Source: Opitutales bacterium
GTDB taxonomy: Bacteria > Verrucomicrobiota > Verrucomicrobiia > Opitutales > Oceanipulchritudinaceae
Reading direction: 5' to 3'
Length of the DNA stretch: 32,904 nt
Assembly: GCA_020831585.1 (NCBI GenBank)
Contig: JAFIGE010000044.1
Coordinates: 1-32,904, forward strand
The translations under genes and the position numbers were made by a program. Numbering within the stretch: position 1 is the first letter of the stretch; each line of letters begins with the position of its first letter. This document shows positions 22,897 to 26,644 of the stretch, one piece after another. The notes below the pieces were generated by a model. The model did not search any database. It was given only the letters and a program-made list of their open reading frames with translations, and was not told where the DNA came from.

Positions 22897-23931
22897 ATGC
22901 CGATCGCCACACCCAAGCAGTACGCTGCCATGCTCGACGCCGCCCAGAAGGGCGACTACGCCTACCCGGCGGTAAACGTGACGAGCATCACCACGATTAA
23001 CGCCGCCCTCAAGGCTTTCTCCGACGCGAAGTCCGACGGGATTATTCAGTTCTCCACGGGAGGCGGACAATTTGCCTCCGGTCTGAACGTGAAGGATGCC
23101 GCCTTCGGGGCCATCGTGCTGGCCGAAGCCGCGCACCGCCTCGCGGAAAAGCACAACGTGCTCATCGGTCTGCACACCGACCACTGCCAGCCGAAGGCCG
23201 CCGAGGGCTTCCTCAAGCCGCTCATCGCCGCCACTGCGGAGCGCCGTGCGAAGGGCCTCACCAACCTTTTTCAGAGCCACATGCTCGACGCTTCCGATCT
23301 CCCCTTGGAGGAGAACATGAAGCTCTCGCAAGAGTATCTGAAGCTCTGCGCGGAAAATGAAATCATCCTCGAAGTCGAAGCCGGTGTAGTCGGCGGGGAA
23401 GAGGATGGAGCCGCCGGCGGCGAAGACACACCGCAGGAAAAACTCTACACGACCCCCGAGGACATGGTGGCCGTTTACGAAGCCCTCAACGGCCTCGGCC
23501 GCTATATGTTTGCCGCCACTTTCGGCAATGTGCACGGATCCTACAAGCCCGGCGCGGTAAAGCTCCGCCCGGACATCCTCAAAAAGGGCCAGGACGCGGT
23601 TACGGCCAAATACGGCGCACAGGCAAAGTTTGACCTCGTTTTCCACGGGGGCTCGGGCACACTGCTCGAAGAAATTCGCGAGACACTCGCCTACGGTGTG
23701 GTGAAGATGAACATCGATACCGACACCCAGTATACCTTCACCCGCCCGATCGCGGATCACATCATGAAGAACTACGATGGTGTGCTCAAGATCGACGGTG
23801 AAGTGGGCAACAAGAAGGTCTATGATCCCCGTTCTTACCTCAAGAAGGCCGAAGAAGGCATGGCCGCCCGCCTCGTCCAGGCTGCAGACGACCTCCGCAG
23901 CACGGGGAAGACGATCTTCGGGCAAGTATAG
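22897..23931 (+). CDS. fbaA: Class II fructose-bisphosphate aldolase
   Basis: A zinc-dependent aldolase of glycolysis and gluconeogenesis, 344 residues, close to the enteric FbaA type (class IIa). Catalytic Asp95 and zinc ligand His96 lie in GLHTDHCQ. FQSHMLDAS (125-133) and ILEVEAGVVGGEEDG (157-171, with Glu161) follow. His213 in FGNVHGSYKPG and His250 in VFHGGSG complete the metal site, and VVKMNIDTDTQ (269-278) binds the substrate phosphate. The end YDPRSYLKKAEEGMAARL is also family-typical. There is no strong Shine-Dalgarno (AAAAGA only), but codon use looks like that of the highly expressed pnp. It is monocistronic: a divergent gap lies upstream and a terminator directly downstream. Confidence 0.97.
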   Translation: MPIATPKQYAAMLDAAQKGDYAYPAVNVTSITTINAALKAFSDAKSDGIIQFSTGGGQFASGLNVKDAAFGAIVLAEAAHRLAEKHNVLIGLHTDHCQPKAAEGFLKPLIAATAERRAKGLTNLFQSHMLDASDLPLEENMKLSQEYLKLCAENEIILEVEAGVVGGEEDGAAGGEDTPQEKLYTTPEDMVAVYEALNGLGRYMFAATFGNVHGSYKPGAVKLRPDILKKGQDAVTAKYGAQAKFDLVFHGGSGTLLEEIRETLAYGVVKMNIDTDTQYTFTRPIADHIMKNYDGVLKIDGEVGNKKVYDPRSYLKKAEEGMAARLVQAADDLRSTGKTIFGQV

Positions 23932-24048: not shown

Positions 24049-25074
24049 TCAACCTTTGTCGGGAAAAATATCCTTGATGCCGGTAACCGCCCCACCCGCT
24101 TCAGTGAGGCGAAAAGAGGGACCAGCCCGCCCTTTTTCAATGGCCTTGATCATTTGCTTGAATGCGCGCTTCGGGAGTTCGCGCGAGCGGATGCCCGTCT
24201 CTTCGCAGGTGGTGAAGGCGAGCCCGGTCCGCAAGGTCTGTGGTCGGCCCAGCAGCCGGGCCGTGACCGCGTTTCCGGCCACCGGCGGCAAAGGATGCTT
24301 GGATCGGGCAACGACGAGAAAAGCATAGGGCAAGCTGCGCAAGTCCACGCCCATTTCCCGCGCAAAGCGGCCCCAGGCCGCATCCGCGCCAATTCCCTTG
24401 GGTGGTTTAGCAAAATGGTGGCACCAGGCGAGGGCTCCTTCGGGTTGGGTGAGACCGCAGGTTCCGGCATGCAAACAGGGTGCCACCACCGACCAACCGG
24501 CTGCCCTCCGCGAATCCCGCGCGGCGACGAGGCGACGGCTCTCGGCATAGGTTCCTGGCTCGACCCAGACCACCGCCTCCGCTTCAACCGCATCCGCCCA
24601 AACGCGGGCCTCCTTTTCCGGCGAGATCTCCGAGAGCACGTGGCTCACCAGAAGGAGCGCGGGTGGCGCTTCGGGAGCGGAGAGCGGATCCAAAGTCCGC
24701 AGGGGCAAGCCGGGGAAATCCTCCGAAAGGCGCATCCGCGCGAAATCCCGGGCGCGCGTGGACCGGTCAACGAGGCAGACGCCCGCGCAGCGCTCCGGAA
24801 AAGCCGCCAGCATCCTCCGAATGGCCACCCCCGGCCCGCACCCCCAGTCCATCCAGATGCCCCGGGGAGGTTCCCAACCGCGCTGCTTCAGCTCGCCGAT
24901 AACGGCGTCCCATTTCCAACCGATCCGTTCGCCGAGAAAGCGGTCGTAGAGCGTCAGGTCGGCATCCGAGCGCCAGTAGTCGGCCTGCCCGGCGGAGCCA
25001 TCGAGAAAACCGTCCCGCAACCCCCGCAAGCGCGCCCAGTCGATGGTGTCGAGATCCTCCGGCGCGTCAGGCAT
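24049..25074 (-). CDS. Rsm22/METTL17-like ribosomal small-subunit methyltransferase-fold protein
   Basis: A 341-residue class I methyltransferase-fold protein of the Rsm22 family, known mainly from mitochondria, where METTL17/Rsm22 helps assemble the small ribosomal subunit and binds an Fe4S4 cluster. The SAM-site motif is WMDWGCGPGVA (residues 74-84). The family block VVWVEPGT...SRRLVAARD (168-187) is present, followed by VVAPCLHAGTCGL and AWCHHF. Four cysteines at 200, 206, 218 and 290 match the order and approximate spacing of the cluster ligands of METTL17, so a cluster is plausible. The bacterial role is not settled; ribosome assembly is the natural guess. Its start overlaps the end of the upstream gene by eight bases, suggesting coupled translation. 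It is convergent with the aldolase gene. Confidence 0.85.
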   Translation of the reverse strand: MPDAPEDLDTIDWARLRGLRDGFLDGSAGQADYWRSDADLTLYDRFLGERIGWKWDAVIGELKQRGWEPPRGIWMDWGCGPGVAIRRMLAAFPERCAGVCLVDRSTRARDFARMRLSEDFPGLPLRTLDPLSAPEAPPALLLVSHVLSEISPEKEARVWADAVEAEAVVWVEPGTYAESRRLVAARDSRRAAGWSVVAPCLHAGTCGLTQPEGALAWCHHFAKPPKGIGADAAWGRFAREMGVDLRSLPYAFLVVARSKHPLPPVAGNAVTARLLGRPQTLRTGLAFTTCEETGIRSRELPKRAFKQMIKAIEKGRAGPSFRLTEAGGAVTGIKDIFPDKG

Positions 25075-26152
25075 TGAGCTTTTCCAGTTCGGGGAACTCG
25101 ACCCGTTGGCGCTGCATGTTCTCGCGAAGGTGGGTCAGGGAGAGGCGGAGAATTTCACCCATGTTGCGGGCGGTTTCAAAAGCCGTGTTCTGGTAATGAT
25201 CGGCCAAAGCGGAACGCAAGTCCGCTACCTTCTCATCCGTGGAAATCGTGTCGACGCACATCGCCTCCATGAGCGCGCCCAGGCGCTCGCGCGCGATGAC
25301 CAGCCGCCGGTAAAAAACGGCCTGCTCCTCCTTCTGGTATTGGCGCGCGGTGGGGACATTGATTTGCTGCATGCAAAACTCGGCCAGCGCCCGGTTCTCC
25401 CGGAAAAACTGGGGCAGATAGAAATTCTTCCGCCCGCTGTAGCTCTGTTGATCGAAATCCATCGCGCGGATGCGCATCTGCACGTCTTCGAAGTCCGGTG
25501 TGACATCGACGACGAAATTATAGGACCGCATGTCACCGAGGAGACGGATAAAGCAGCGCTCATTGAACTTTACCAGCTCCTTGGCCAGGCGGATCTTGCG
25601 GATGTTGCGGTCGTGCATCCAGCGCTCAATAAAGACATCTCCCGGGATCCCCACCACGTGCTCCTCCACCAGAAGGTCGTCGGCGATGAGATAATGCATG
25701 CGGTTGGGAGAAAGGAGGTGCTCCAACTCCAGCCCGTAGATGCGGGAGGCGTCGGCCTTTTTGATGTAATAATAATCCTGGTTCTCGTTGTAGGCATTGA
25801 CCACGCGAATGCGGAAAGGGTGGCTGTTTCCGAATGTGCAATAGTCGATGCGATCGACGTAGAGGTGATCGACAAAGGAGTAATCGCCCTCGGTCTTGAG
25901 GAGGGCGTAAATGGCCGTGAGGTGCTTGTTGAGCCGCCGCATGACCTCCGACCGGTAGATCACCGAGCGCCACAACGTGTCCTCTCCCTTGGCGTCGTAA
26001 AGCGGCATCGACTCATCCCATTCAGTCAGGCGGGAATAAGAAACAGGCAGCTTGAAAAGCCGGTTGTAGCGCCCGAGATATTCTCGAAGGGGTGCCCCGA
26101 TGGGGTACATCGGCTTCTTGCGCGTGGCAAACTGGTCAGGAGCGAAGGCCAT
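25067..26152 (-). CDS. Unrecognised protein with protein-kinase-like motifs, 361 residues
   Basis: I do not recognise a named family. The start MAFAPDQFATRKK at 26152 is the best available; the frame continues upstream but in compositionally different sequence. Several stretches follow the logic of a kinase or phosphotransferase fold. YYYIKKADASR (Lys131/132) could be the ATP-binding lysine strand. LELEHLLSP (Glu144) could be the helix-C glutamate. LLGDMRSYNFVVD places Asp207 and Asn212 exactly five residues apart, as in catalytic loops, and IRAMDFDQQSY (Asp232/Asp234) could be the metal-binding Asp. Spacing from Asn to Asp (20-22) is closer to HipA-like than to classical kinases. No glycine-rich loop is obvious. 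The last 100 residues are helical. It overlaps the Rsm22-like gene by eight bases and is divergent from rpsU. Confidence 0.8.
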   Translation of the reverse strand: MAFAPDQFATRKKPMYPIGAPLREYLGRYNRLFKLPVSYSRLTEWDESMPLYDAKGEDTLWRSVIYRSEVMRRLNKHLTAIYALLKTEGDYSFVDHLYVDRIDYCTFGNSHPFRIRVVNAYNENQDYYYIKKADASRIYGLELEHLLSPNRMHYLIADDLLVEEHVVGIPGDVFIERWMHDRNIRKIRLAKELVKFNERCFIRLLGDMRSYNFVVDVTPDFEDVQMRIRAMDFDQQSYSGRKNFYLPQFFRENRALAEFCMQQINVPTARQYQKEEQAVFYRRLVIARERLGALMEAMCVDTISTDEKVADLRSALADHYQNTAFETARNMGEILRLSLTHLRENMQRQRVEFPELEKLNA

Positions 26153-26377
26153 GAATTTCAGCTCAGTTTTCCCGTTGGTTCCGGTGTGCGCAATGCAAAA
26201 GCCAAAACCTGAGCTAACCGCGCGGCGGTTCTGCGTGGGCAGCAGGACCGCGAGAAAGCGGAAGGCCAACACCGGCAAGCCGCCGATGCAGACCCCGCCC
26301 CTTTTCATCACAACCGATCCGGACGACGGCAGAAATCATCGAAAGCAGGAAGGCGGGAAAATATCTCAAGAATGGCA

Positions 26378-26406
26378 TTGACGAAGGAGCGCAAACTCAT
26401 TGCTTT
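26378..26406 (+). promoter_or_regulatory. Weak candidate promoter for rpsU
   Basis: TTGACG (26378-26383) is a good -35 match, but 17 bases later only TGCTTT (26401-26406) is found. The 40 bases before the rpsU ATG are AT-rich with no Shine-Dalgarno. Otherwise the 26153-26443 divergent spacer shows nothing I can name. Confidence 0.25.
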
Positions 26407-26443
26407 CCTTCTTTTTCCGAGTAAACCAGAGCATCGATTTTAT

Positions 26444-26644
26444 ATGTCCGTTGAAGTAAAGATCCGCAAAGGAGAACCCATGGAGCGCGCCCTTCGTCGC
26501 CTCAAGAAGAAGTTGGATCGCGAAGGCGTGATTCGCGACGTGCGTGCCAAGCGCTATTTTGAAAAGCCCAGCGAAGTGAAGCGCCGCAAGAAGAAGGTGG
26601 CCGCCTTTTCGGCCATGCTTCGTGCCCGCTACGAAAATCTCTGA
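26444..26644 (+). CDS. rpsU: 30S ribosomal protein S21
   Basis: S21 is a small basic protein near the 16S anti-Shine-Dalgarno region and is needed for initiation on structured mRNAs. The start MSVEVKIRKGEPMERALRR at 26444 gives 66 residues, matching the family length; the open frame begins earlier (26372) but the extra 24 residues are not S21. The core is ERALRRLKKKLDREGVIRD, then YFEKPSEVKRRKKK and the basic C-terminus. The leader lacks an SD and is AT-rich, which fits the SD-poor rpsU leaders in groups where S21 level controls its own translation; that link is inference. It has its own terminator and is divergent from the kinase-like/Rsm22-like pair. Confidence 0.95.
   Translation: MSVEVKIRKGEPMERALRRLKKKLDREGVIRDVRAKRYFEKPSEVKRRKKKVAAFSAMLRARYENL

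Follow-up and report, generated by a model that had tools for sequence, protein, structure and literature searches.

An unannotated protein family with a predicted PI3K-like kinase fold in Verrucomicrobiota and Bacteroidota

Is the unnamed protein encoded next to an Rsm22-like gene in an Opitutales genome a kinase, and do its gene neighbours tell us what it acts on? An earlier note, made from the letters of a 32,904-nucleotide stretch of DNA (the window), had pointed out kinase-like motifs in this protein and had read it as a kinase or pseudokinase working with Rsm22. The gene and the motifs YYYIKKAD, GDMRSYNFVVD, and AMDFDQ are real: they lie in a minus-strand frame of 361 residues, which starts with the ATG at 26152 and stops at 25067-25069, and its own genome holds a single copy of it. 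The ORFs and Pfam also bore out the described surroundings, namely an 8-base overlap (ATGCCTGA) with the Rsm22-like ORF and a divergent rpsU gene at a distance of 291 bases, counted from the likely true rpsU start (Table 1). Promoter, terminator, and Rfam scans gave no match. The Rsm22-like protein contains a PCxHxxxC...WCHHF stretch, which resembles the Fe-S-cluster-binding cysteines of METTL17/Rsm22.

Table 1. Positions of the kinase-like gene, its predicted lobes and active-site elements, and the adjoining genes in the window.
Feature	Positions	Strand	Basis
Rsm22-like methyltransferase-fold protein	24049..25074	-	Pfam Rsm22 PF09243, E 1.1e-14
Kinase-like gene, 361 aa, matching no named family of the searched libraries	25067..26152	-	ORF, model
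Predicted C-lobe and C-terminal helices, ~residues 171-351	25100..25642	-	model
Putative invariant metal motif D232-F-D234-Q235 replacing DFG	25448..25459	-	alignment
Putative catalytic loop G206-D207-M208-[RH]-x-x-N212; G, D, M, and N invariant	25517..25537	-	alignment
Predicted N-lobe, ~residues 39-170	25643..26038	-	model secondary structure; lobe limits inferred
Glu144, helix C, invariant; presumed salt bridge to Lys131, role inferred	25721..25723	-	model, alignment
Asp134 to Arg137, invariant end of K-x2-D-x2-R	25742..25753	-	alignment, PI3K-class sequence comparison
Lys131, putative ATP-phosphate lysine, end of strand 125-132, invariant	25760..25762	-	model, alignment
rpsU (S21), divergent	26372..26644	+	PF01165 match; likely true start 26444 (MSVEVK...)

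The primary structure alone does not place the protein in a named family of the libraries searched. Searches with the single sequence and with the family profile matched no entry of Pfam, NCBIfam, or PADLOC and gave no significant match in PHROGs or among PDB sequences. PF00454 matched neither the protein nor anything in genome G000, and it was not among the matches listed for 76 relatives. Alignment of the family with hhalign against single sequences of VPS34, p110 gamma, mTOR, HipA, UbiB, SrkA, WaaP, and WaaY and against AceK gave nothing clearly above a background of 538 proteins; the sequences of VPS34, p110 gamma, and mTOR had been verified with PDB chains. Anchored scoring of segments and motifs gave each of the kinase families a z value between 1.7 and 3.0 and did not discriminate among them. 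A literature search found no paper describing the kinase-like family. Long upstream frames at some loci were considered as possible domain fusions and rejected because supporting evidence was lacking.

The predicted three-dimensional structure is that of a kinase. An AlphaFold2 model built with 76 Verrucomicrobiota sequences shows, with high confidence, a kinase fold of two lobes (pLDDT 92, pTM 0.89), and a second, independent model from a Bacteroidota-only alignment repeats it. The modeled N-lobe opens with two strands (47-52 and 58-65) and a long helix (68-87), followed by three strands (97-105, 113-119, and 125-132), the last of which ends at Lys131, helix C (135-147) with Glu144, and the hinge strands (154-164). 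Beyond the hinge come a helix, the catalytic loop, two strands leading to the Asp-Phe-Asp motif, and a helical C-terminal part. This modeled order of secondary-structure elements is that of a kinase, and its extra strands and helix in the N-lobe are typical of PI3K.

Searches of the PDB with Foldseek and VIA-align ranked the VPS34/PI3K/PI4K/PIKK class at the top for the first model, with a Z score of 13.8 and an r.m.s.d. of 4.5 over 270 residues, and for the Bacteroidota-only model, with a Z score of 13.4 and an r.m.s.d. of 4.4 over 272 residues; Foldseek's own superpositions were poor (TM 0.2-0.4), and similarity of fold does not in itself demonstrate activity. Among solved structures, VPS34, PI4KIIIb, and PIKKs match best, with model residues 20-351 aligning to residues 396-857 of VPS34. 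For either model, all of the best 50 matches listed in the VIA-align search belong to the PI3K/PI4K/PIKK class; AceK, chains of which exist in the PDB, and HipA are not among the best 50 matches listed in the fold searches. The earlier note had proposed such a structure prediction and fold search, and its expectation of a two-lobe kinase fold held for both models, each with kinases as the top PDB matches.

Conservation of the putative active site points in the same direction. The ATP lysine, the helix C glutamate, the catalytic aspartate, the asparagine, and the metal-binding aspartate occur in the order of the protein-kinase-like (PKL) superfamily as K131, E144, D207, N212, and D232. Across 216 aligned homologues, 31 of the 361 positions are invariant, including E163, H165, G206-D207-M208, and D232-F-D-Q235, and no variation was found at K131, D134, R137, E144, D207, N212, D232, or D234. 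Since all six catalytic residues originally cited fall within these 31 positions (hypergeometric probability ~2.5e-7), the motifs are beyond chance. Their spacing is also nearly fixed, with a K-D distance of 76 or 77 in 215 of the 216 homologues and a D-D distance of 25 in 214. The conservation check proposed with the motifs therefore came out in favor of a kinase as far as Asp207, Asn212, Asp232, and Asp234 are concerned, and the choice left between Lys131 and Lys132 can be settled on Lys131, because Lys132 is conserved in only 63% of the homologues. Residue 209 is a histidine in 22 of the 216 homologues (e.g., L215), where GDMH replaces GDMR and comes nearer to those loops of other kinases that contain a histidine. 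As for the alternative between kinase and pseudokinase, the protein looks like an active kinase because its catalytic residues are invariant in 216 homologues; nothing catalytic is missing that would speak for a pseudokinase.

Homologues were found in 13 of the 17 sampled genomes of the window's taxonomic family, Oceanipulchritudinaceae, in 60 of 103 of the order, and in 82 of 387 of the phylum (~21% of sampled Verrucomicrobiota). Among Bacteroidota, 99 of 395 sampled genomes match (~25%), one of them with only a broken remnant of the gene in two pieces with stops (G720:C1:3158148-3158407). A scan of named genomes found homologues with roughly 51-57% identity in Pontibacter, Hymenobacter, Algoriphagus, and Chitinophagaceae among the best 80 of 577 confirmed loci, the remainder of which may include phyla beyond Bacteroidota and Verrucomicrobiota. 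No homologue was found in phage, viral, and plasmid collections. The family is discrete, since nearly all intact homologues exceed 300 bits and hardly any sequence falls between this level and no match. In a FastTree tree of the 216 homologues, Verrucomicrobiota form three groups nested among Bacteroidota, implying three state changes at modest backbone support. This topology suggests repeated horizontal transfer between the two phyla, in approximately three events.

The best reading of the models and the alignment is that the protein founds an unannotated family of the PKL superfamily, PI3K-like in fold. For the kinase-like families PI3K, AlphaK, and IDHK (AceK), the relation to the others shows only in structure or key residues (PMC1821047), and the window's protein family appears to be another of this kind. 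Most of these families lack the glycine of DFG, and Mnk kinases have a DFD motif (PMC1821047). Resembling kinases by anatomy and assigned at the superfamily level, the window family is probably an active kinase family, as judged from the computed fold and conservation. No transmembrane-like segment was detected in 215 of 216 homologues, and the median pI is 6.9. We put the probability at about 0.6 that the protein is a catalytically competent, soluble, stand-alone kinase of an unannotated PKL family, its predicted fold being closest to the PI3K/PI4K/PIKK class.

In analogy to known kinases and AceK, ATP-Mg would bind between the two lobes, where Lys131, held by Glu144, would contact the ATP phosphates and Asn212 and Asp232 would bind Mg. 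Asp207 would orient or deprotonate the acceptor hydroxyl. Asp234, at the place of the DFG glycine, may act like Asp477 of AceK, which sits in the AceK active site (PMC3747045), and thus provide a third acid near the metal and the acceptor. A hydroxyl of some cytosolic substrate would then receive the gamma phosphate. We give close to even odds that this substrate is a serine or threonine of a protein, and somewhat lower odds that it is a polar small molecule or a lipid head group.

Three other readings of the same fold have to be weighed against this one, beginning with an AceK-like kinase that controls an enzyme of the TCA cycle, for instance isocitrate dehydrogenase. Residues 206-244 match AceK 456-487 locally in the pattern GDMxxxNF...D[YF]D[EQ]x[CS]Y...NF, which is not significant alone, and isocitrate lyase co-occurs with the kinase in Bacteroidota (30 of 98 genomes with the kinase vs. 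18 of 297 without; Fisher p 3e-9, uncorrected for relatedness or lifestyle). However, 68 of the 98 kinase-bearing Bacteroidota lack isocitrate lyase, as does every one of the 17 genomes in the window's taxonomic family, and for the latter this makes an AceK-type function in the glyoxylate bypass unlikely. The Pfam AceK_kinase profile has no match in G000 and only chance-level matches in its class, the hhalign alignment with AceK stays at background, and the 361-residue protein lacks the N-terminal regulatory region of AceK (578 aa); taken as a whole, an AceK-like kinase is very unlikely. We find it just as hard to believe in a lipid kinase that has the head group of an inositol lipid as its substrate. 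The PI3K and PI4K lipid kinases are indeed among the best fold matches, but the fit to the PIKK protein kinases is about equally good, and inositol-1-phosphate synthase shows no co-occurrence with the kinase in Bacteroidota (odds ratio 1.15, p 0.64). A kinase fold can also serve other chemistry, for which there are precedents within the PKL superfamily such as AMP transfer by SelO and glutamylation by SidJ. The DFD and DMR sequences, which deviate from the PI3K consensus, would fit such a function or a mere scaffold, whereas the invariance of every canonical catalytic residue makes either improbable.

The remaining alternative concerns the neighbours: that the kinase acts with Rsm22 on ribosome assembly or translation, as the earlier note had proposed. 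The overlapping frames and the divergent rpsU in the window are in its favor, as is the same order of kinase then Rsm22 in six of the 17 genomes of the taxonomic family. Yet Rsm22 was undetected in six kinase-bearing genomes of that very family (G001, G002, G004, G005, G006, and G011), and in G003 the two genes are on different contigs. Beyond the family, Rsm22 was not found beside the kinase in Verrucomicrobiota or Bacteroidota, including about 80 Bacteroidota loci viewed with several kilobases of flanking sequence, and rpsU adjoins the kinase only in the window's own genome, so that the proposed persistence of the neighbourhood did not hold up. Elsewhere, the neighbours are lineage-specific and unrelated between lineages, e.g., an aldolase in Chitinophagaceae, a LytTR response regulator in Pontibacter, and an amidohydrolase or NUDIX gene in some Opitutae, with no constant gene partner. 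Because one joint function would predict a constant partner, the adjacency of kinase and Rsm22 is best read as local gene order. The kinase is not a dedicated partner of Rsm22 or the ribosome, and we give a joint action on translation hardly any credence. A class II fructose-bisphosphate aldolase is encoded two genes away from the kinase-like gene in the window (22897-23931), and an aldolase homologue directly follows the kinase in ~10 Chitinophagaceae-type loci (L103, L123, L125, L138, L141, L145-L147, and others); this recurrence is possibly a coincidence.

For the stand-alone PKL kinase preferred here, a wider evolutionary scenario may be drawn. A regulatory kinase of PI3K/PIKK type could have originated in bacteria, belonged to the ancestor of Bacteroidota, and reached Verrucomicrobiota in about three transfers, controlling a core process by protein phosphorylation as a bacterial branch of a fold known mainly from eukaryotes; in its entirety, we regard this scenario as speculative and rather unlikely. 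In any case, a single-copy protein with an apparently intact kinase site, as judged from its sequence, occurs in two large phyla, and the searched libraries list no family for it. Should it be active, it would represent a sequence-orphan branch of the kinase superfamily whose PI3K-class fold is familiar above all from eukaryotes. The homologues carried by cultured Pontibacter, Hymenobacter, and Algoriphagus make the family testable.

How does the family compare with known systems? Rsm22/METTL17 is a different protein and a neighbour only, adjoining the kinase in six genomes of the window's taxonomic family without persistent linkage elsewhere. The D-x-H-x-x-N-F-x-V loop of HipA (PF07804) resembles the D-M-H-x-x-N variant of the 22 members mentioned above, but there is no Pfam match and hhalign against E. 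coli HipA remains at background. AceK, the isocitrate dehydrogenase kinase/phosphatase (PF06315), has the GDMxxxNF loop and D[YF]D with the second aspartate in common with the window family, which differs from it by the missing profile match and N-terminal regulatory region. The PI3K/PI4K/PIKK class (VPS34, PI4KIIIb, SMG1, Tel1/ATM, and mTOR; PF00454) resembles the predicted fold over residues 20-351 with Z scores of 13-14, although the window protein has neither its accessory domains nor a sequence match to PF00454. Both contain Asp-x4-Asn and an Asp-Phe metal motif in the same order, and K-x2-[DE]-x2-R is common to VPS34, p110 gamma, mTOR, and the window family. Within these shared elements, GDRHxxN or DRHxxN in the PI3K/PI4K/PIKK loop corresponds to GDM[RH]xxN in the window family, and DFG corresponds to DFD.
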